DNA from: Anaerolineales bacterium
GTDB lineage: Bacteria; Chloroflexota; Anaerolineae; Anaerolineales; UBA11579
DNA: 64,000 bases
Direction of reading: 5' to 3'
NCBI GenBank assembly: GCA_021463845.1
Contig: JAJTXV010000002.1
Span: 166,962-230,961 of the forward strand
Of the stretch, positions 6,670 through 40,261 are shown in pieces. Position numbers and translations under genes: made by a program. Within the stretch, counting starts at the first letter, position 1. Every line of letters starts with the position of its first letter. Under the pieces are notes generated by a model. That model was not told the DNA's origin. It worked only from the letters and a program-made list of their open reading frames with translations, and made no database searches.

Positions 6670-7944
6670 TTAGGCGGCCCCCACGCGGTCGATGGTCCAT
6701 GCCAGTTGCGGACGCACGAAACCCTGGCGCGGCTCAGGCCAGTGCATGCCGGGGGCGCCCATCGCGTCCACAGTGAAGGCCAAGGCGCGCTCATCCCAAA
6801 AATAGCGGCGCACGCGGAAGGCACTGGCATTCACGCCCAGCAAATATTGACCTTCGTTCAAGAAATCGGCGGGGATGGTGGCGCGGCTGACGTAGCGACC
6901 GGCCTCACGCGTGCCATGTTTCTCAAAGGCCACGGGGTCATCGGTATCAAACGAAGTGAGGATGACCTCACCGCGCATACTCTGCAAGTAAATACCTACG
7001 CGCAAGCCTTGAATGGGCTGTGCCAGCGTGTATTCAAATTCGATCTCAAGCGGTTGGCGAGACTGGGCGGTCTCCACCACGCTGCCGCTGGGATCTTTGA
7101 CGCGCAGGGCCACAGGCGCAAACGGCGCGGCATCCGCGGGCACTTCGTCAGCGGCCCAGGTGCGCTCACCGTTCTTCTGAAAGCTGGAGGACATGTAATA
7201 GTCCACCGCCTCGCGGGTCGGCGCACGGAAAGCCAGCTGGCCACGCTCCATCACAATGCATTCTTCAGTGAGACGCAGAATGGCGGACATGTTATGGCTG
7301 ACGAACAGCACCGTGCGGCCGGCGGCGGCCACATCGCTCATCTTGCCTAGGCACTTGCGCTGGAACTCAGCATCGCCCACGGCGAGCACTTCATCCACCA
7401 CCAAAATTTCGGGCTCGAGATGAGCAGCCACAGAGAAGGCCAGGCGCAGGTACATGCCGCTGGAGTAGTGCTTGACGGCGGTGTCAATGAATTTATCCAC
7501 GCCAGCAAATTCAACGATCTCGTCAAATTTCTTGGCGATCTCGCGACGCTGCATGCCTAGGACCGCGCCGTTGAGAAAGATGTTCTCGCGGCCGCTAAGC
7601 TCGGGGTGGAAGCCAGTGCCCACTTCCAACAGGGAGCCAACGCGGCCGTTGATCTCGGCAAAGCCCGTGGTGGGATCGGTGACGCGTGAAAGGATCTTGA
7701 GCAGCGTGCTCTTGCCGGCGCCATTGCGGCCGACCACGCCCAGCACCTGGCCCTGCTTGACGTCAAAGGTGACATCGCGCAGCGCCCACACCGTCTCGGC
7801 GCGCTCGCGCAGCTCGCCCTTGAGAAGGCGCACCGGCCAGGTGACGGCCGCGCCCAGGCGTTCGCCCAGGGTGCTGTAGGCCTGTTGGCTGCCGCCCAGG
7901 CGGTATTGCTTACCTAGACCTTCGACACGTATGGCGTAGCTCAT
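6670..7944 (-). CDS. Wzt-type polysaccharide export ABC ATPase with C-terminal glycan-binding domain
   Basis: The 424-residue subunit powers export of a lipid-linked polysaccharide. Residues about 1-240 form the ATPase: GRNGAGKSTLLK is Walker A, YSSGMYLRLAFS is the signature region and ILVVDEVLAVGD is Walker B, followed by a switch histidine in FVSHNMS. Residues about 255-424 form a Wzt-type beta-sandwich (FEYTLAQPIQGLRVGIYL) that in known O-antigen exporters recognises the finished chain end. The gene starts one base after the permease ends. The C-terminal domain implies that chain termination or modification is coupled to export. Confidence 0.93.
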   Translation of the reverse strand: MSYAIRVEGLGKQYRLGGSQQAYSTLGERLGAAVTWPVRLLKGELRERAETVWALRDVTFDVKQGQVLGVVGRNGAGKSTLLKILSRVTDPTTGFAEINGRVGSLLEVGTGFHPELSGRENIFLNGAVLGMQRREIAKKFDEIVEFAGVDKFIDTAVKHYSSGMYLRLAFSVAAHLEPEILVVDEVLAVGDAEFQRKCLGKMSDVAAAGRTVLFVSHNMSAILRLTEECIVMERGQLAFRAPTREAVDYYMSSSFQKNGERTWAADEVPADAAPFAPVALRVKDPSGSVVETAQSRQPLEIEFEYTLAQPIQGLRVGIYLQSMRGEVILTSFDTDDPVAFEKHGTREAGRYVSRATIPADFLNEGQYLLGVNASAFRVRRYFWDERALAFTVDAMGAPGMHWPEPRQGFVRPQLAWTIDRVGAA

Positions 7945-8802
7945 CTAGACCACATCCGCAAAGGTGCGCTCCATGCTGCGGAAATACATCAGGCCGCTCA
8001 CCAGCATGACAGACGCAGAGGCCAGCGAGACCCACAGCATGTTCTCGGAATACACAGGAACGCCCAGCAGCGCCTGGCGGAAACCCTCCACCACGCCCAC
8101 CAACGGGTTGAGCGCGTACAGCCACTGCCACTGTTGCGGCAGACGCTCAAAAATGCTGGAGGCTTCGTAAGCGATGGGGCTGGCCAGCATCCAGAATTGG
8201 GTCAGGAAGGGGATGATGTACTTGACGTCACGATAGTGCACATTTAGGGCCGCCAGCCACAGGCCAACGCCCAAGGCAGTCAGCAGCGTGATGAGCACAT
8301 ACACCGGCAGCAGAAGTAAATTGGCCGGCGCAAACTGATAATAGATCATCATCCCGACCAGGATCAGGAAGGCGACCGCGAAATCAAGCACGCCGCTGAG
8401 CACATTGGCAAGCGGAACAATGATGCGCGGGAAATAGACCTTGGTGATCATGTTGCGGTTGGCCACCAGCGAACGGCTCGCGTCGCTAACCGCGTTGGAG
8501 AACAGGTTCCATGGCAACAAGGCCGCAAAGGTGAACAGCGGACGCGGCACGTCGCCGGTCGGCAACCCAGCTACTTCGCCAAAGAGCAGGTTGAGCAGCA
8601 GCATCTGCAGGAGAGGCTGCAGGATGGCCCAGCCGCCGCCCAGCAAGGTCTGCTTGTAGCGCACCAGGATGTCACGCCAGGTGAGGAAGACGATAAGTTC
8701 ACGGAAGTTCCACAGCTCCCGGAAGTTCAGCCCCACCATGCCGCGCTGCGGCCGGATGAGCACTTTGGTGCTCGGCGCGCTTTTGGTTACAGCAGTGCTC
8801 AT
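7945..8802 (-). CDS. Wzm-type polysaccharide ABC exporter permease
   Basis: A 285-residue ABC-2 permease with about six membrane segments. [22 protein letters not shown] after the N-terminal cytoplasmic helix is the family hallmark, followed by [10 protein letters not shown] and [13 protein letters not shown]. It forms the transmembrane channel partnered by the adjoining Wzt-like ATPase, and the genes are contiguous. It overlaps the upstream fucose-synthase-like gene by 4 nt. Family knowledge places it in the inner membrane, exporting undecaprenyl-linked glycan. Confidence 0.93.
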
Positions 8803-9758
8803 TTGATCAGCTCAGCACGGTGCTGCAAGTACCAGTCAATCGTCTTGCGCAACCCTTCTTCGAAGTTCACACGAGCGCGAAACCCGAACAGTTCCTCGGC
8901 GCGGCTCACATCCAGCAGGCGGCGCGGCTGCCCGTTGGGATAGGCCTCGTTCCACACTAACTCGCCCTCAAAGCCAACCAGGCGGCTGATGAGCTCGGCG
9001 AGATCCTTGATGCTGATCTCATAGCCGGAGCCGAGATTGACGGGCTCATCACCATCGTATCGCTCGGCCGCCAGCACAATGCCTTCGGCGGCATCTTCTA
9101 CATAGAGGAATTCACGCGTGGGCGAACCATCTCCCCACAACTCGACCTGTGTATCGCCGTTCTCCTTGGCTTCCACAAATTTGCGGATAAGGGCTGGGAT
9201 AACGTGCGAAGACGCCGGGTCAAAGTTATCTTTGGGGCCATACAGATTTACGGGCAACAGATAGATGGCATTGAAGTCGTGCTGTTGGCGGTAGGCCTGG
9301 GCCTGCACCAGCAGCATTTTCTTCGCCAGCCCGTAAGGGGCATTGGTCTCTTCAGGATAGCCATCCCAAAGCTCATCCTCGCGGAAGGGCGTGTTGGCAA
9401 ATTTAGGATACGCGCACACCGTGCCCAGCGCGACGAACTTGTCCACACCGCTCTCCCAGGCCTGGTGCATGAGCGGAATGCCCATCATGATGTTCTTGTA
9501 GAACAAGTCGGCCGGCTTTTCGCGATTGAGGCCAATGCCACCCGCCAGTGCAGCAATATGGATCAGCACATCCGGCTTGGCATCTTGCAGCATGCGTGCG
9601 ATCTCTTCCGGCTTAACCAGATCATAGTCCTTGCTGCGCGGGATGAAGATGTCCGTGGCGCCGCGCTGGCGGAGTGTCTCCACCACAAAAGAGCCTAGGA
9701 AGCCGCCACCACCGGTGACGGTCACACGTTTGCCTGTCCAAAAGTTTGCTTCAGCCAT
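8799..9758 (-). CDS. fcl: GDP-L-fucose synthase-like SDR (Fcl/WcaG)
   Basis: The 319-residue protein resembles GDP-4-keto-6-deoxymannose epimerase/reductase. It has TGGGGFLGS near the N-terminus, [21 protein letters not shown], the active-site YGLAKK (YxxxK) and a [16 protein letters not shown] segment characteristic of Fcl. I chose the ATG at 9758 because AAGG lies 5 nt upstream; an in-frame GTG at 9764 is also possible. The partner GDP-mannose 4,6-dehydratase is not in the window, so the substrate would have to come from elsewhere on the genome. Confidence 0.87.
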
Positions 9759-9766
9759 TTTCACCT

Positions 9767-10774
9767 TTACTGCACAATGAACTGCGCGTTGCGAAAACGC
9801 GGGTTATGCGGGTCTTTGATCAAGCCGTCTTGCAGCGCATGCAAAAGTTCACGAATGCCGTCATCCACTGTGTAGCGGGTCTGGTAGCCCAGTACGCGGC
9901 GCACCTTTTCAAAAGAGACGCTGATGTCGCGCATGTCGCCGCCAAAGGTCAAGTCCTTGTAATTGACAATGATCTCCGGCAGGCGCTTGATGATCAAGCC
10001 TACGATCTCATCCTTGCGGTAGTTTCCAGTTTCGTCGCCGAGATTGAAGATCTCGCCGCGCACCTTGTCGTCTGGCGCGCCCAAACCCAGAATGATGCCC
10101 GCCACGATGTCACGCACGTGCACAAAAGAGCGCGAGTAGCCGCGTTGGTAAATAAGCAGCTCGCGCTTGGTGAATGCTTCCAGAACAAATTGATTGACGA
10201 TCAAGTCAAAACGCGTGCGGGGTGAGATGCCAAACAGCGTGGCAAAACGGAAGATGACCGGCGTGCAGGATGAATCCTTGTGTGCCTGCAAATACTCCTC
10301 GGCCGCGATCTTGGTTTCCGCATACAGAGACTGGGGATGCAATGGAGAGTCTTCGGTTACCAGGACGCCATCATGCGACTGGCCGTAATTGCTGTAGGAA
10401 GAGGAAAAGACAAAACGCTTGGCACCCATTTCGGCCGCTTGTTCGAAAACATGTTTCGTGGTGTCCACGTTGTAACGCCAGGCTACAGACTTACCCACCG
10501 CCTGGCAGGCCGGGAAGCCTACGATGCCTGCCAGGTGCACGATCGCGTCGGGCTTGGCCCCGGTGCGCAGCAACTGGCGAAACGTGTGCGGCTCACCCAC
10601 ATCGGCCTTGATGAACTTGAAATTAGGGTGGGCTAGATAAGCCACCAGCGAATCGCCGCCGAACAGCAGCTTGTCCATCACCGTGACCTGGTGACCGGCC
10701 TGGAGCAGGTCACCCACCAGCAAAGAGCCGATATAGCCAGCCCCGCCAGTGACGACGATGTGCTGCGCGCTCAC
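9767..10774 (-). CDS. NAD-dependent sugar-nucleotide epimerase/dehydratase (SDR)
   Basis: A 335-residue extended [19 protein letters not shown] is the dinucleotide-binding motif, [10 protein letters not shown] carries the catalytic serine region, and YAETK is the YxxxK pair. It resembles UDP-glucose 4-epimerase/dehydratase-like proteins of polysaccharide loci. The GTG start overlaps the stop of the upstream regulator by 4 nt, so the two are translationally coupled and this is the first enzyme gene of module C. Substrate and product are not assignable from sequence. Confidence 0.85.
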
Positions 10775-11277
10775 GCTGCATTCTCCTGGATGTTGGCATC
10801 CATGATCAGGTGCACCTTATGCCCGGTGACGCGCAAGGTGGCAGCTACCGGGCGCTCAGACTCAACGAGCATCCCCTGTTCCATACAGGTCAGTTTGCAG
10901 ATGTCCAAAATATCGCTGGGGCTGCCGGGCGCCACTTCCAAAGCTACGGCTTTCACACCCGCGGCGCGTGCCTCCGCCAGCAGGGTCTGCACGCGGCTGC
11001 GGGTGCGGCGATACAGCGCCATGGACTGCTCGACATAGTCCACCGTTAGGCGTGCCCGCAGGCTGAGGCCTTGTGGGGTGATGATGTAGCGCAGCTTGCG
11101 GCGCTGAGCGCGGGTGACCTTTACGTAGCCTTTGGAAATAAGGCGTTTCAGGTGCCAATTGACCGTACCCACGGCCACCCCCAGTTGGCCGGCCAGTGAG
11201 GCCTGGGTGACATCCGGGTCGGTTTCGATATGCTCCAGCAGAAGAAGATCCCGCGCGGGATCGGCGTGTTGTTCCAT
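10771..11277 (-). CDS. EPS-associated winged-helix (MarR-type) regulator, copy 1
   Basis: A 168-residue protein. Residues about 10-95 match the EPS-associated MarR-type family: a helix-turn-helix VTQASLAGQLGVAVGTVNWHLK (positions 23-44), then RLISKGYVKV and a wing leading to the helix LTVDYVEQSMALYRR. Residues about 106-168 form an extra domain with LDIxxLxCxExGML, also present in the paralogue at 34281-34769; its function is unknown to me. It is the first gene of its operon, has a clear promoter and dyad just upstream, and overlaps the next gene by 4 nt. I infer an autoregulating local repressor or activator. Confidence 0.85.
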   Translation of the reverse strand: MEQHADPARDLLLLEHIETDPDVTQASLAGQLGVAVGTVNWHLKRLISKGYVKVTRAQRRKLRYIITPQGLSLRARLTVDYVEQSMALYRRTRSRVQTLLAEARAAGVKAVALEVAPGSPSDILDICKLTCMEQGMLVESERPVAATLRVTGHKVHLIMDANIQENAA

Positions 11278-11290
11278 AGGTTGCCTTCAA

Positions 11291-11307
11291 AATTCAGGCG
11301 CTGAATT
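11291..11307. promoter_or_regulatory. Palindromic operator candidate, AATTCAG-GCG-CTGAATT
   Basis: A perfect 7-bp inverted repeat with a 3-nt centre, equivalent to TTCA-N5-TGAA. On the minus strand it shares its ATT with the 3' end of the -10 hexamer and covers the predicted transcription start. The same TTCA-N5-TGAA element occupies the same register at the promoter of the paralogous regulator (34781-34793). This is a likely self-binding site of the winged-helix regulator; binding is inferred. Confidence 0.7.
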
Positions 11308-11332
11308 ATAACGTCAGGATTGCAAAGGTCAA
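11305..11332 (-). promoter_or_regulatory. Sigma70-type promoter of module C
   Basis: On the minus strand TTGACC (-35, 11332-11327) and TATAAT (-10, 11310-11305) are separated by 16 nt. The -35 overlaps the end of the upstream membrane-protein gene. The transcript would start near 11298 with a leader of about 20 nt containing AAGG 6 nt before the ATG of the regulator. Confidence 0.75.
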
Positions 11333-32307: not shown

Positions 32308-32967
32308 CTACGCGCTACCGCTCTTCTTGACTTCCTCTACTAAGGTCTGAAAGCGATCCATCTCGTCCAAATTCTTCGTCTTGTTGCTCTTGTGCATCCG
32401 ATAGCGGTACAGCGGTATCTGCAAATGATGGATCTTGTAATAGTCAGCTAGCCGGGCGCGCAGCTCTTCTTCCTCGCGATGGCGGAAGTTTCCGTTGTAC
32501 AAGCCAAAATTGGCGATCAGATCCGTGCGGTACATGATGCCGCACGAGACGGGGTGGTCTTTGGCATAGCGCCGCTCGAGCTTGTTGCCAAACTCATCGA
32601 CCAGAATGTAGTCGCACGATACACAGAAAGCATCATGATTTTCAGCCAGGTAGCGCGTCAGAAACAACAGCAAATCTGCGTTGATATAGTCATCCGCATC
32701 CACACGCACGAAGTACTGGCCGCGCGAAGCGCGTATGCCGCGGTTGGCCGATTCAGCCACACCCACGTTCTCTTCATTCACGATGTAGCGAAAATTGGAA
32801 TGGCTCTCAAATTTCTTGAGCTGGGCCAGGGTGTCATCCGTACTGGCGTCATCGACAACAATGACTTCGTACTGATTCTGCGGGAAGTTCTGCGAAAGGC
32901 AACTGCGCAGGCAGCGCTCAATATACGCTCCGTAGTTGTACGAAGTTACGATGATCGAAGCCTTCAT
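32308..32967 (-). CDS. Glycosyltransferase family 2 (short)
   Basis: A 219-residue compact GT-A domain: ASIIVTSYNYGAYIERCLRSCL, VIVVDDASTDDT and RVDADDYINADLLLFL, the last holding the DXD. Length is that of a bare catalytic domain with little C-terminal extension. The ATG overlaps the stop of the short NeuB gene. Its location directly after nonulosonic-acid-type genes suggests it may transfer that sugar, although nonulosonic transferases usually belong to other GT families. Confidence 0.88.
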   Translation of the reverse strand: MKASIIVTSYNYGAYIERCLRSCLSQNFPQNQYEVIVVDDASTDDTLAQLKKFESHSNFRYIVNEENVGVAESANRGIRASRGQYFVRVDADDYINADLLLFLTRYLAENHDAFCVSCDYILVDEFGNKLERRYAKDHPVSCGIMYRTDLIANFGLYNGNFRHREEEELRARLADYYKIHHLQIPLYRYRMHKSNKTKNLDEMDRFQTLVEEVKKSGSA

Positions 32968-33704
32968 TTCGCACCTTCCAGCGCGTTCAGGCGCAGCATG
33001 CTGATCTCATCGGTCAGGTTGCGCAGCTGGCGCAGTTCGTCAAAGTCCATGCCGCCCAAATGGGCAAGTTCGGTTGGATTTTGCAATGCCCTGTTTGGCG
33101 TAAAATGCTTCTCAACGTATTCCGCGCCGCGCGCGACCGCGAACAAGGATGCGCCGATGCCAGGAGTGTGGTCGCTATAACCAAGGAATTGATGCGGGCC
33201 AAACACCGGCATCTCAACTTCAGCGTTGATAGTGGGGTATTTTGAAACACAATAGAAATAAACAACATTCTCGTCCTCAAAAGGCATGCCCTTTGTTTTC
33301 CAGTCCCAGGCGCCAAGTGAGATCAATACTTTTTTGCCCGTTGCCAGGATCTGCTTGCACAAATCCACATCCGCAATCGTGCGGCTAGCAATCTTGTATG
33401 TTTGCAAGCCGAGTTCTTCGCACCACTCAACTCGGTCAGCAGAAAACACCGAAGCAAACAACTCAATGCCTACATGGTCACAGTAAGTCTTTAGATCCTT
33501 GAGCTCACTTTTGTCGAACTGCAGATACTCGCGATCTTTGTTTCCAAACAGAGCCTGCGAGTCATACAGTTGCACCTTTACCGAATCTGCACCCGCCAGC
33601 TTGCACTGCTGCACCATCATCTGGGCCCTGCTCATGCTCCCACTGAATTGGGGTTGGATCTCAGCTATCAAGTTGACTTTAGGAATTAGTTTGTTTTGAT
33701 ACAT
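32964..33704 (-). CDS. Short NeuB-like synthase lacking the SAF domain
   Basis: A 246-residue protein that aligns with the NeuB barrel: VNLIAEIQPQFSGSM, LAGADSVKVQLY, LQTYKIASRTIAD, FYCVSKYP and LGYSDHTPGIGASLFAVARGAEYVEKHFT. It ends about 100 residues before full-length NeuB would, so it has no SAF domain. The GPDH segment present in the 354-residue paralogue (1235-2299) is replaced by NPTELAHLGGM. Whether it still makes a nonulosonic acid is open. It sits between a CMP-sugar synthetase and a GT2 gene. Confidence 0.8.
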   Translation of the reverse strand: MYQNKLIPKVNLIAEIQPQFSGSMSRAQMMVQQCKLAGADSVKVQLYDSQALFGNKDREYLQFDKSELKDLKTYCDHVGIELFASVFSADRVEWCEELGLQTYKIASRTIADVDLCKQILATGKKVLISLGAWDWKTKGMPFEDENVVYFYCVSKYPTINAEVEMPVFGPHQFLGYSDHTPGIGASLFAVARGAEYVEKHFTPNRALQNPTELAHLGGMDFDELRQLRNLTDEISMLRLNALEGAK

Positions 33705-33705
33705 G

Positions 33706-34284
33706 TCATTCCTTTATCCAGCCAGGTTGGCCTTGGGCCTCAATTGTTTCTAAGTCGGCTGCGGTGTGTACATCCATAGCATCGGCTATGTACACGCCAC
33801 AGTGGGTGCTGATCGACTGTTGAAAAACATACTCATACTTCATTATGCGAAAGCAGGCATTCTGCACCAGATCAGCATCCACCGAGAACACTTCGTTCAG
33901 TTTGCGCTCCTCAAGCTTTTCGATCGCGCCATCCAGGTCCGCCGGGTTGAGCTGCGGAGAGTTGGCCTGCAGCGACACCACCAACTCGGGCGCCGGGTCA
34001 AATTGGCGTGCCGCATGCACGATCACATCTTGCTTGAATACTTCGTGGCCCGCCAGCTCCTGCGGCCGCACAATCACGCTCGCGCCAAATTCCTCAGCCC
34101 GTGCCGCTATCTCAGCATCCTCGGTGGAGACAAAGCAGCGGTCCACATACTTTGACTGATCCGCCGCGCGGATGGCCCAATACAACAGCGGCCGGCCCCA
34201 CAGGGTGGCGATGTTCTTGCGCGGCAACCGCTGAGAGCCGCCGCGCGCCGGGATCACTGCATACACACGCTTGTTCCCGATCAT
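33706..34284 (-). CDS. neuA: NeuA-like CMP-nonulosonate cytidylyltransferase
   Basis: A 192-residue enzyme that activates a nonulosonic acid with CTP. YAVIPARGGSQRLPRKNI at the N-terminus is the CTP-binding signature, RCFVSTEDAEIA and SLQANSPQLNPADLD follow. It is about 30 residues shorter than typical NeuA (about 220-230), ending in a C-terminal GQPGWIKE. The ATG overlaps the stop of the regulator upstream by 4 nt, making it the first enzyme of module B, and it is one base from the NeuB-like gene. It could alternatively activate Kdo-like sugars. Confidence 0.87.
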   Translation of the reverse strand: MIGNKRVYAVIPARGGSQRLPRKNIATLWGRPLLYWAIRAADQSKYVDRCFVSTEDAEIAARAEEFGASVIVRPQELAGHEVFKQDVIVHAARQFDPAPELVVSLQANSPQLNPADLDGAIEKLEERKLNEVFSVDADLVQNACFRIMKYEYVFQQSISTHCGVYIADAMDVHTAADLETIEAQGQPGWIKE

Positions 34285-34769
34285 ACGATCTTGCGGCCTC
34301 CGTTGCCGGCCGGCTGGCTGCGCTCCAAGGAATAGGCGCCATTTCGCATACGGATCATGTACTTGCCCGGCTTTTCGTCAAGAGTCAGCATGCCGGTTTC
34401 CAGGCAACTAAGTCGGAAAATATCCAGCTCCGGGTCGCTGCCATCGATATACACGCTTTCAATACCCTTGGCTTCCATGCTGGCGATCAGGTCCTTCGCC
34501 TGCTGGCGCAGCACGTGATACACCTTGAGCGAGTCTTTGACATACTGGGTGGCATTGCGCTGGAAGGCGCGCATGCCTTCGCCGGTCAGGTTGTAGCGCA
34601 GGCGGGTGCGGTCCATGCGCGTGGCCTTGATGTAGCCGCGGCTGATGAGGCGCTTGATGTACCAGTTCACGCTGCCGATCGCCATGCCAAGGCTGCTAGC
34701 CAGCCCAGCCTGGGTAATGGTTTCGTCTTCGGCAATTGCTTCGAGTAGTCGGTATTCGCGCTGTTTCAC
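34281..34769 (-). CDS. EPS-associated winged-helix (MarR-type) regulator, copy 2
   Basis: A 162-residue paralogue of the regulator at 10771-11277, starting with GTG. Its helix-turn-helix ITQAGLASSLGMAIGSVNWYIK (residues 18-39) followed by RLISRGYIKA is nearly the same as in copy 1, so both may read the same DNA site. Residues about 102-162 repeat the extra domain with LDIxxLxCxExGML. A -35/-10 pair and a TTCA-N5-TGAA element lie immediately upstream. The 4-nt overlap with the next gene is repeated in both copies. Confidence 0.85.
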   Translation of the reverse strand: MKQREYRLLEAIAEDETITQAGLASSLGMAIGSVNWYIKRLISRGYIKATRMDRTRLRYNLTGEGMRAFQRNATQYVKDSLKVYHVLRQQAKDLIASMEAKGIESVYIDGSDPELDIFRLSCLETGMLTLDEKPGKYMIRMRNGAYSLERSQPAGNGGRKIV

Positions 34770-34780
34770 AGGAGCCAGCT

Positions 34781-34793
34781 TTCAGGAAATGAA
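34781..34793. promoter_or_regulatory. TTCA-N5-TGAA operator candidate, copy 2
   Basis: TTCA-GGAAA-TGAA on the plus strand. The adjoining TT extends the right arm to TGAATT, matching copy 1 at 11291-11307 outside the spacer. Its ATT is shared with the -10 hexamer, exactly as in copy 1. It would lie at the transcription start of module B. Confidence 0.6.
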
Positions 34794-34822
34794 TTCTGAC
34801 ACGCGCGCGGCAAAAGTGTCAA
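34793..34822 (-). promoter_or_regulatory. Sigma70-type promoter of module B
   Basis: On the minus strand TTGACA (34822-34817) is a perfect -35 and CAGAAT (34798-34793) a reasonable -10, with an 18-nt spacer. The transcript would start about 17 nt before the GTG of the regulator, inside the operator candidate. Confidence 0.65.
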
Positions 34823-37201: not shown

Positions 37202-37213
37202 GGTCTAGCTCAT

Positions 37214-37345
37214 TAACATTGCAACTGGGTGGTTGTTTGTTCCGACAAACAGCAACTGCGAAGCCGGTGAGAATCCGGCGCTGTCCCGCAACTGTGATCC
37301 GTCATCTGAGACGGTAAGCCAGGTCGCCGGCCCAGCTTGCTCAAG
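37214..37345 (+). ncRNA. Cobalamin (B12) riboswitch aptamer
   Basis: The conserved core GCCGGTGAGAATCCGGC is followed by GCTGTCCCGCAACTGTGA, the hallmark B12-box region, and then by GTAAGCCAGGTCGCC, which is the 3' conserved strand. It is preceded by a matching 5' arm. It lies 100 nt upstream of a terminator and btuF. Binding of adenosylcobalamin should favour the terminator. The aptamer boundaries are approximate. Confidence 0.92.
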
Positions 37346-37409
37346 CACAATCCTCGACGATAGGAGGTGCCTCACCGTTCAAGCCCAGAACCACCGCTTG
37401 ACAACACCT

Positions 37410-37437
37410 TCCCTGCCGCGTGCAGGGATTTTTGTTT
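37410..37437 (+). terminator. Intrinsic terminator, riboswitch expression platform
   Basis: TCCCTGC (37410-37416) pairs with GCAGGGA (37422-37428) across a 5-nt loop, followed by a T-run. It lies 20 nt before the btuF GTG, so it most likely forms the off state of the cobalamin riboswitch. A TCAAGC/GCTTGA pair just upstream could belong to the competing antiterminator structure. Confidence 0.75.
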
Positions 37438-37458
37438 AATCAACTAAGGAGACTTACT

Positions 37459-38418
37459 GTGAAGAAACGCATTCTCAGCAGCCTTGTGCTGCTCGCTCTG
37501 TTGGCCGCCTGCGCCCCCGCAGCCGTGGCCACCCAAGCTCCCACAGTGGTGGAACCCACCACTGCGCCCGTTGTAGTCGATACCAGCATCAGCCTCACCG
37601 ATGACCTTGGCCGCGAAGTCATCCTCGAAGCCCCCGCCGCCCGCGTGGTGTCCATGGCGCCCTCCAACACCGAGTTGCTCTTCGCCGTGGGTGCTGGCGA
37701 CCAAGTCGTCGGCCGTGACCCGTACTCCAACTTCCCTGACGAAGCGCTGGACGTGGCCGACATTGGCGACACGTACGCCAGCCTGAACACCGAGCTGATC
37801 CTCAGCCTGGAACCTGACCTGGTGCTTGCGGCCGGCATTACTCCGCCAGAACAGGTGGACCAGCTGGAGCAGATCGGCATCACGGTCTACTGGCTCGGCA
37901 ACCCCACGGACCTCGAGGGCTTGTATCGCAACCTCGAGACCGTCGGCATCCTCACGGGCAATGAGCAGGAAGCCCTGGCCGCCATTGACGAGCTCAGCGC
38001 CCGCGCCGATGCGGTGCTGGCTGCAGTCGCCAATGTCACCGATAAGCCCACCGTCTTCTACGAAGTCGATGGCCAGACCGACCCCAACGCGCCGTTCACC
38101 GCTGGGGCGGGCACCTTCATTGACCTCATCATCAACCTGGCTGGTGGCGCCAACGTGGTTGGCGATCAGGATGGATACATCGCCTACAGCATTGAAGACC
38201 TGCTGGTAGCCGACCCAGACGTCATCCTGCTGGGTGACTACGCCTGGGGCGCCACGGTCGAGTCCGTTGCGGCCCGCTCGGGCTGGAGCGCTCTGTCCGC
38301 CGTAGCCAATGACCAGGTCTACCCGTTCAACGATGACCACATGAGCCGGCCCGGCCCGCGCCTCATCAACGCGCTGGAGGATCTGGCGCGCCTGCTGCAT
38401 CCAGAGCTTTTCGACTAA
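37459..38418 (+). CDS. btuF: BtuF-like cobalamin-binding lipoprotein
   Basis: A 319-residue solute-binding protein starting with GTG at 37459, with AAGGAG 8 nt upstream. Residues 1-18 form a lipoprotein signal ending in LLAAC, so Cys18 is probably lipidated. The mature part is a Peripla_BP_2 domain: DDLGREVILEAPAARVVSMAPSNTELL, DPDVILLGD and NDQVYPFNDDHMSRPGPRL. It captures cobalamin outside the membrane for the permease-ATPase pair next door. The riboswitch strongly supports B12 as the ligand over iron-siderophores. Confidence 0.9.
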   Translation: MKKRILSSLVLLALLAACAPAAVATQAPTVVEPTTAPVVVDTSISLTDDLGREVILEAPAARVVSMAPSNTELLFAVGAGDQVVGRDPYSNFPDEALDVADIGDTYASLNTELILSLEPDLVLAAGITPPEQVDQLEQIGITVYWLGNPTDLEGLYRNLETVGILTGNEQEALAAIDELSARADAVLAAVANVTDKPTVFYEVDGQTDPNAPFTAGAGTFIDLIINLAGGANVVGDQDGYIAYSIEDLLVADPDVILLGDYAWGATVESVAARSGWSALSAVANDQVYPFNDDHMSRPGPRLINALEDLARLLHPELFD

Positions 38419-38430
38419 GCACCACAAATA

Positions 38431-38461
38431 CTGCGGGGCGAGCATAATGCTCGCCCCGCAG
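38431..38461 (+). other. Intercistronic hairpin between btuF and btuC
   Basis: A perfect 14-bp inverted repeat, CTGCGGGGCGAGCA with its complement, and a TAA loop. It has no T-run. It starts 12 nt after the btuF stop and ends 10 nt before the btuC start. It may stabilise the btuF mRNA end or lower btuC expression, giving more binding protein than permease. Confidence 0.7.
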
Positions 38462-38471
38462 CCGCACTTAT

Positions 38472-39485
38472 ATGAAATCTTTCATCCGCCGCCATCCATT
38501 TATCACCACTGCCATCCTCTTGGTCGGCGCATTTTTGCTTAGCATTGCGCTGGGCTCTGTCTTCATCCCGCCTGAAAGCATTTTCAAGGCCTTGCTTGGT
38601 CTTGAACCATTGCAAGGCACGCTAAACACGATCCTGTTCGAGATCCGCCTGCCGCACGCCGTGCTCATCACGCTCACCGGCGCGGCCCTGGCCGCCAGCG
38701 GCACGGCCTACCAAGGTTTGTTCCGCAATCCCCTGGCCGACCCATACCTCATTGGCATTGCCTCTGGCGCCGGGCTTGGCGCCGTCACCATGATGGCGCG
38801 CGATTGGCCCAAGGATCTGCTGGGTTTCTACAGCGTTCCGGCGGCGGCTTTCGCAGGCGCCCTGGTTACGGTTGCCATCGTGTATTCGATCGCTCGCTTG
38901 GGCAAAACGGTGCCGGTCACCACGCTCATCCTGGCGGGCGTCGCTGTCAGCACCTTTGCCACTTCGCTCAGTTCATTCCTCATGCTGCAATCCGAAAGTG
39001 AATTACGTCGCGCCATTGCGTGGCTTCTGGGTGGCGCCGCCCTCAGCGGGTGGCAGCCCGTCATCGCCATGCTGCCTTATGTTGTCGTTGGTGTCACCGC
39101 GCTGCTATTCTCCGGCCACCAACTCAACGTCCTGCAAACTGGCGAAGAACAAGCCCAGCAGTTGGGCCTGCCGGTGGAGCGCATCAAACTGGTGCTCATC
39201 ATCGCCGCCTCGCTGGCGGCGGCCGCCGCGGTGGCCTTCTCCGGCATGATCGGCTTCATCGGCCTGGTCATTCCGCACTCCCTGCGTCTCATCTGGGGCG
39301 GCGACCATCGCCGTTTGCTGCCGCTCTCCTTGTTCGGTGGTGCCGCAGCGCTGCTGGTGGCCGATGTAGTCGCCCGCACAATTCTTCCGCCGCAGGTAGT
39401 TCCCGTTGGCATCATCACTGCCCTGGTCGGCGTGCCCTTCTTCCTCTGGCTGCTGCGCCGTGCCAAAGCGCAGATGTATTGGTAA
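38472..39485 (+). CDS. btuC: BtuC-like FecCD permease
   Basis: A 337-residue membrane protein with about ten hydrophobic segments. Family marks are LGSVFIPPESIFKALLG, IRLPHAVLITLTGAALAASGTAYQGLFRNPLADPYLIG and FSGMIGFIGLVIPHSLRLIWGGDHRRLLPLS, the last being the ATPase-coupling loop. It is the cobalamin channel of the BtuCDF importer, working with the adjoining ATPase. No clear ribosome-binding site precedes the ATG, so translation may depend on the upstream message. Confidence 0.92.
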   Translation: MKSFIRRHPFITTAILLVGAFLLSIALGSVFIPPESIFKALLGLEPLQGTLNTILFEIRLPHAVLITLTGAALAASGTAYQGLFRNPLADPYLIGIASGAGLGAVTMMARDWPKDLLGFYSVPAAAFAGALVTVAIVYSIARLGKTVPVTTLILAGVAVSTFATSLSSFLMLQSESELRRAIAWLLGGAALSGWQPVIAMLPYVVVGVTALLFSGHQLNVLQTGEEQAQQLGLPVERIKLVLIIAASLAAAAAVAFSGMIGFIGLVIPHSLRLIWGGDHRRLLPLSLFGGAAALLVADVVARTILPPQVVPVGIITALVGVPFFLWLLRRAKAQMYW

Positions 39486-39487
39486 CC

Positions 39488-40261
39488 ATGCTGTCGATTC
39501 AGAATCTCTCGCTCACTTATGGCAGCTCTCAGGTCCTGACCGACTTGAGTCTCGAGCTCCGCCCGGGCGAAGTACTCGGTCTCATTGGCCCCAACGGCGC
39601 CGGTAAAAGCAGCCTCATCCGCGCCCTCAGCGGTGTGCTCGCCCCGCACAGCGGGCACATCTCTTTCAATAGGCAGGACCTGCTGGCCATGTCCGAGGCC
39701 CAGCGCGCCCGCCTGGTCAGCGTAGTGCCCCAGTCCACCCAGCTGCCGCCAGCCTTCACTGTCTATGAATGCGTGGCTCTGGGGCGCACTCCACACCTCA
39801 ACTGGCTGGGCACCCTAAGCACAGCCGATAAGTCAAAAATTGACTGGGCCATGCAGGTTACCGAGAGCGCCGCGTTAAAAAACCGCCGCGCCGGTGAGCT
39901 TTCTGGCGGCGAGCAGCAGAGCGTGCTGCTCGCTCGCGCCCTTGCGCAGGATTGTCCCATCCTGCTGCTCGACGAGCCCACCGCTCACCTGGACCTACAC
40001 CACCAGGTAGCCATTCTCAATGTGGTCCGCAGCCTGGCCCGCGAGCGCGAGCTGGCTGTGCTGGTCGCCCTGCATGACCTCAACTTAGCTTCCCTGTTCG
40101 CTGAACGCTTGGCCTTGCTGGTCAACGGCCGTCTGCAGGCACAGGGCACTCCGCAGGAAGTGCTGACCCAGGACGCTCTGTTGCGGGCCTATGCGGTTTC
40201 CACTCGCATCCTGCCCAATCCTGAAACCGGCCAGCCCTGGGTCGTCCTGCAAGACAAGTAA
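39488..40261 (+). CDS. btuD: BtuD-like cobalamin ABC ATPase
   Basis: A 257-residue ATPase from the ATG at 39488, two bases after the btuC stop. LIGPNGAGKSSLIRALSG is Walker A, GELSGGEQQSVLLARALAQ is the signature and ILLLDEPTAHLDLHHQ is Walker B, with VALHDLN holding the switch histidine. It energises B12 import through BtuC. The order riboswitch-F-C-D is standard and no cobalamin biosynthesis genes follow, so the cell may depend on uptake. Confidence 0.93.
   Translation: MLSIQNLSLTYGSSQVLTDLSLELRPGEVLGLIGPNGAGKSSLIRALSGVLAPHSGHISFNRQDLLAMSEAQRARLVSVVPQSTQLPPAFTVYECVALGRTPHLNWLGTLSTADKSKIDWAMQVTESAALKNRRAGELSGGEQQSVLLARALAQDCPILLLDEPTAHLDLHHQVAILNVVRSLARERELAVLVALHDLNLASLFAERLALLVNGRLQAQGTPQEVLTQDALLRAYAVSTRILPNPETGQPWVVLQDK

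Follow-up and report, generated by a model that had tools for sequence, protein, structure and literature searches.

The two regulator loci

The window, the whole 64-kb stretch of DNA analysed here, contains two paralogous genes encoding winged helix-turn-helix (wHTH) regulators, each followed by polysaccharide genes on the minus strand. The features are listed below.

6670..10774, minus strand: two NAD-dependent epimerase/dehydratases, an ABC-2 permease and a Wzt-type ATPase, after regulator 1 (open reading frames, Pfam)
10771..11277, minus strand: regulator 1 (class A), 168 residues, a wHTH followed by a beta-alpha-beta-beta domain at the C terminus; distantly related to MarR_EPS
11289..11309, minus strand: predicted class-A operator, minus strand ATAATTCAGCGCCTGAATTTT; core at 11293-11305; best PWM score in the window
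11305..11310, minus strand: -10 box TATAAT of regulator 1; overlaps the left arm of the operator; kept in 80 class-A promoters
11327..11332, minus strand: -35 box TTGACC of regulator 1; 16-bp spacer; 5/6 match
32308..34284, minus strand: cytidylyltransferase, NeuB-family synthase and glycosyltransferase-like ORF, after regulator 2 (Pfam CTP_transf_3, NeuB)
34281..34769, minus strand: regulator 2 (class B), 162-residue paralogue; 42% identity to regulator 1 over 142 residues
34777..34797, minus strand: predicted class-B operator, minus strand AGAATTCATTTCCTGAAAGCT; core at 34781-34793; flank kept in orthologues
34793..34798, minus strand: -10 box CAGAAT of regulator 2; weak, 4/6 match
34817..34822, minus strand: -35 box TTGACA of regulator 2; 18-bp spacer; 6/6 match

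The genes after regulator 1 overlap or abut, which suggests that they form one operon. The glycosyltransferase-like call after regulator 2 is a sequence reading made without Pfam. Both regulators are located in an exopolysaccharide gene cluster setting, with epimerases, Wzt, NeuB and cytidylyltransferase. The window also contains a Cobalamin riboswitch (37213-37347, plus strand; 58.8 bits) upstream of an apparent substrate-binding protein/permease/ATPase transporter cluster (37420-40261).

Both regulators contain a wHTH DNA-binding domain, a feature of the MarR superfamily. TIGR04176 (MarR_EPS) is the best NCBIfam model for both (67.8 bits for regulator 1 and 51.4 bits for regulator 2); neither reaches its cut-off of 88, and the two proteins are therefore relatives rather than members of this model. 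No protein above the TIGR04176 cut-off was found in the 301 Chloroflexota genomes. HTH_24 matches both (48.7 and 46.3 bits), and the Pfam MarR model (PF01047, gathering score 24.6) scores regulator 1 at 23.9 and regulator 2 at 25.2. In the AlphaFold model of regulator 1 (mean pLDDT 90.4), residues 7-66 form the wHTH, 68-105 one long helix and 110-159 a small C-terminal domain. The first 94 residues (2-94) match MarR and PadR folds with Z scores of 11-13, including MexR (VIA-align, 1lnw_A; Z 12.9, rmsd 1.7, 80 aligned residues). A fold search with the whole model returned no match for the C-terminal domain, the hit list being filled by the wHTH, and this result does not indicate a new fold. The model, a monomer, suggests that dimerisation probably occurs through the single long helix, as in PadR and Sso10a; MarR-superfamily dimers form through N- and C-terminal helices.

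A pattern search of the window with TTCA-N5-TGAA gives two matches, both at the regulator promoters and none elsewhere: TTCAGGCGCTGAA at 11293-11305 for regulator 1 and TTCAGGAAATGAA at 34781-34793 for regulator 2. These are the two elements that a sequence-only reading of this DNA had reported. The bare count of two is unremarkable because 0.86 matches are expected in the shuffled window; the weight is carried by position. The longer pattern AATTCA-N5-TGAA occurs three times in all, both strands counted, a number reached in 0 of 100 shuffles. The own genome (2.33 Mb) holds 13 TTCA-N5-TGAA sites and 25 matches to the reversed pattern. It encodes only two clear regulator copies, each with one of the 13 sites less than 30 nt away, and the chance that both sites fall within 60 nt upstream of the regulators is estimated at about 1e-7. 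With a PWM built from the sites of relatives, the two window sites being excluded, regulator 1 (34.0) and regulator 2 (15.3) give the only scores of at least 4 in the window. The remaining 11 genomic sites score at most 11.5 (promoter sites of relatives, 14-37) and have no recognisable promoter context.

The site is in the same register at both promoters. Read on the minus strand, both -10 boxes end in the AAT of AATTCA, as had been claimed, and the accompanying claim that the dyad covers the start of transcription agrees with the predicted +1 positions. A start 6-7 nt past the -10 box would fall at about 11299 for regulator 1 and 34787 for regulator 2, which is the dyad centre in each case. 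The downstream side of the regulator-2 dyad has no symmetry past the 4-bp arms (TGAAAGCT).

Conservation of the site at promoters of relatives

Relatives were gathered from the own family and from a large genome collection, and their upstream regions were compared across Anaerolineae. The sequence-only reading had named a lack of enrichment at orthologous regulator promoters as grounds for refutation; the motif is clearly enriched there. The core occurs exactly, with its 5-bp spacer, in 89 of 92 distinct upstream regions (shuffle mean 0.45), and other spacers (2-4 and 6-8) give 0-1 matches in the same regions. When regions that share at least 15% of their 8-mers beyond the motif are removed, the exact core is retained in 61 of 64. 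The sequences are related and the counts are not independent events; the spacer bases and the surrounding promoter have nonetheless diverged.

The class-A consensus, at promoters of the regulator-1 class, is GTTATAATTCAgNNNcTGAATTTTgga. Its dyad, GTTATAATTCA-N5-TGAATTTT, has the -10 box fused to it and is centred near the predicted +1. In the three exceptions (L061, L101 and L111), gmd is the first gene and the regulator the second, and the site is located before gmd instead of before the regulator; G209 (L174, L231) has the same arrangement, with the site at the gmd promoter. The site hence follows the operon promoter and not the regulator start codon. Second operator copies lie 25-26 bp upstream, about 2.5 helical turns, in L088, L090 and L107; further upstream copies are present in L105 and L124, and overlapping copies 13-14 bp apart in L083 and L061. 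The copies at 25-26 bp could serve looping, cooperativity or activation. The upstream copies in L088, L090, L105, L107 and L124 read AAAATTCA-N5-TGAATA, and for this reason AAAATTCA looks like the natural left arm and TATAATTCA like the same arm adapted to hold the -10 box.

The site also tracks the regulator gene. Among 120 genomes of the class, nine have both site and regulator, two the site only, one the regulator only and 108 neither (Fisher 5e-11, relatedness not corrected), and the single regulator-only genome has a variant site (L149). Class-A-like sites in G042 and G141, which lack the regulator, precede a gatB-like gene and an unrelated small gene and were taken as chance. A search of 81 genomes of the order with the 21-bp class-A pattern gave 45 exact matches, and the reversed pattern gave none. 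All 45 are followed by polysaccharide genes: 30 regulator-1 orthologues, 13 gmd (GDP-mannose 4,6-dehydratase) genes, one of which (L218) was identified from its reading frame, and two glycosyltransferase-like genes, namely one glycosyltransferase and one membrane protein read as a mannosyltransferase type. Operons with gmd that carry a class-A operator include L129, L130, L139, L140, L061, L101 and L111, among others. These gmd operators indicate a small predicted regulon beyond autoregulation in several families. In the own genus, each regulator-bearing genome has one class-A site (exact except in G010, with one mismatch), so the class-A regulon there probably comprises no more than the operon of the regulator itself. 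A class-B site was also observed before a cytidylyltransferase-like gene in G050 (L248), a gene that regulators of the regulator-2 type may also control.

Operator classes and the predicted mode of control

We consider it very probable that the element is the operator by which each wHTH regulator represses its own exopolysaccharide operon. It is located at the promoter of that operon and is conserved in orthologues, as for a local autorepressor. Dimer binding, repression and ligand induction, which we infer, would proceed as follows. In the 21-bp dyad AAAATTCA-N5-TGAATTTT, one arm of which is altered to carry TATAAT, each TTCA/TGAA half-site would receive one recognition helix of a dimeric winged-helix protein. 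Since this dyad overlies both the -10 box and the predicted start, the bound protein would exclude RNA polymerase. Regulator 1 would repress the epimerase/Wzm-Wzt operon and regulator 2 the cytidylyltransferase/NeuB operon, until a signal relieves repression; this might be a sugar nucleotide that the C-terminal domain senses.

The sequence-only reading had proposed that both regulators control their own operons and possibly each other's. The first part is strongly supported: the site is conserved in front of orthologues, it moves with the operon promoter where gmd precedes the regulator, it co-occurs with the regulator gene across genomes, and it is found at other polysaccharide operons. The second part is not supported. 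A shared operator through which both paralogues regulate both operons would fit the identical TTCA/TGAA core and spacer, the similar recognition helices and the presence of both genes in one genome less than 24 kb apart. However, despite the common 4+4 core, the two clades keep different flanks. Regulator-2 orthologues have AGAATTCA-N5-TGAA-NN-CT (class B); the +15 base is T in 77 of 85 class-A sites and C in all 15 sites of the clade with an RTRL wing. This difference is kept throughout the sampled f1 and f2 genomes in which both paralogues coexist. Exact class-A sites are located at genes for regulator 1, gmd or glycosyltransferases. Those of class B lie at regulator 2, at one cytidylyltransferase gene and at two further positions that are probably due to chance, although this split of targets is partly forced by the search patterns themselves. 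Cross-control is thus possible but weakly supported and not favoured, and we regard a shared operator as unlikely; low-level binding of each protein to the other's site may occur.

The flank difference may be tied to the wing rather than to the recognition helix. A class-B-like recognition helix (GSVNWY) combined with a class-A-like wing is found in L126, L133, L134, L135 and L149, none of which has C at +15; this combination points to the wing. The association of the RTRL wing with C at +15 is clean (15/15 versus 3/92), but all C-type rows belong to one clade of the tree (support 100/98). A direct wing-to-flank code was accordingly not adopted: C at +15 arose once, which is one event and not proof. 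In published accounts, MarR wings contact the minor groove (PMC6401476, PMC6837509).

If the regulators instead acted as activators, the dyad would help to open or recruit polymerase at an otherwise weak promoter. Among 80 class-A promoters, the -35 box matches TTGACA at no more than three positions in 33 and at five or more in 44; the poor boxes, together with the second copies near -35 in some promoters, are what such a role would predict. The main dyad, however, lies over the -10 box and +1, where repressors typically act by steric hindrance, and the window promoters have -35 boxes with 5/6 and 6/6 matches. Activation is accordingly quite improbable, and steric repression of the own operon is preferred because the operator sits over the -10 box and +1 of a good promoter.

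It is still harder to credit that the conserved block is read as an extended -10 element by one specific sigma factor, or forms a hairpin in the 5' RNA, with no repressor bound. TATAATTCA is invariant in most class-A promoters, as a sigma-factor element might be, but the downstream arm is conserved too, the class-B loci L040 and L042 keep a dyad that is not fused to the -10 box, and second copies exist apart from it. Alphaproteobacterial copies are located 78-117 nt before the gene, the site tracks the regulator gene across genomes, and a transcript starting near the dyad centre would include just one of the two arms. Chance resemblance, or a recent duplication of promoter and gene, accords with the paralogy of the regulators and with the 0.86 bare cores expected per window, but is already refuted, its likelihood being negligible, by conservation over dozens of genera with diverged surroundings.

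Relatives beyond the phylum and known systems

Several plasmid-borne alphaproteobacterial relatives score above the TIGR04176 cut-off (148.5, 152.8 and 146.4 bits). Dyads resembling GCGTTCA-N4-TGAACGC are located upstream of alphaproteobacterial loci, being present in 13 of 15, usually with a 4-bp spacer (shuffle means for spacers 4 and 5, 0.03-0.05). Among 16 proteobacterial and campylobacterial loci, the spacer is 4 in 11 and 5 in two, and three have no exact match; two of the latter (L202, L205) have apparent near-matches, and the Aliarcobacter member (L201, Campylobacterota) has no site in its upstream region. The half-site seems to be shared across the broader regulator family, since alphaproteobacterial TIGR04176 members carry it upstream.

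In 12 of 13 Rhodobacterales loci (L164-L170, L202, L204, L205, L207, L208), GTGCGGTAGC is found 20-38 nt before the regulator start (GTGCGGCAGC in L170), downstream of the TTCA-N4-TGAA dyad where the dyad is present. It resembles the ops element, which recruits RfaH, and NusG/RfaH-family genes adjoin the regulator in L168, L202 and L204. This arrangement suggests paired control of initiation and elongation at these loci. In Chloroflexota, GCGGTAGC was found upstream in just 1 of 110 loci.

Chelatococcus plasmids (L163, L206) encode a long wHTH regulator whose C-terminal domain is NeuD-like; gmd lies directly downstream of it, and two TTCA-N5-TGAA sites are spaced 27-28 bp apart. The weak NeuD-like match is the only hint of a sugar-nucleotide ligand. 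A MarR_EPS-like clan extending from Chloroflexota to Alphaproteobacteria might share one ancient TTCA/TGAA code with a 4- or 5-bp spacer, in which the wing reads the outer bases and thereby insulates paralogues within a cell; in the longer members the C-terminal domain would sense a sugar nucleotide that the operon produces, for product feedback on surface-polysaccharide synthesis. We hold this extended picture as speculative and, as a whole, doubtful.

Anaerolineae are mostly known from metagenomes alone. The element provides a specific, testable operator for a widespread and essentially unstudied regulator family and predicts co-regulated polysaccharide operons (regulator plus gmd) in this class. 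A paralogue pair in one cell with slightly different flanks would be useful for studies of repressor-operator insulation. No published operator for a MarR_EPS-type family was found in the literature searched, mostly non-subscription, where the family name appears merely in passing; this absence does not prove novelty. MarR-like proteins that repress their own genes are textbook cases, and the operator/autorepressor arrangement is ordinary in kind.

The window regulators share with TIGR04176 MarR_EPS the polysaccharide-operon setting, and alphaproteobacterial members over the cut-off have TTCA-N4-TGAA upstream; the dyad as a MarR_EPS feature is our own proposal and not a curated criterion. Unlike that family, the window proteins score below the cut-off and have an extra C-terminal domain, and their operators have a 5-bp spacer and A/T flanks fused to the -10 box. 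The Chelatococcus protein of L163 is alike in its TIGR04176-like N-terminal half, its two upstream TTCA-N5-TGAA sites and the gmd gene directly downstream. It differs in a larger C-terminal domain with a weak match to NeuD_NnaD (19.7 bits, cut-off 160.8), a model with no match in the window proteins. The fold resembles PadR (VIA-align Z 12.6 to 3hhh_A over 93 residues) and Sso10a (Sso10a-2, 4hw0_C, Z 11.5 over 93 residues), but the matched chains stop before the C-terminal domain of the window regulator, and no PadR sequence family was assigned above cut-off. BpsR of Bordetella is a MarR-superfamily repressor of the Bps polysaccharide (PMC6837509). The window regulators resemble it in the wHTH fold, the site over the promoter and the predicted control of a polysaccharide operon, whereas BpsR is a canonical MarR protein regulated by 6-hydroxynicotinate (PMC6837509), and the window proteins probably dimerise through their one long helix.
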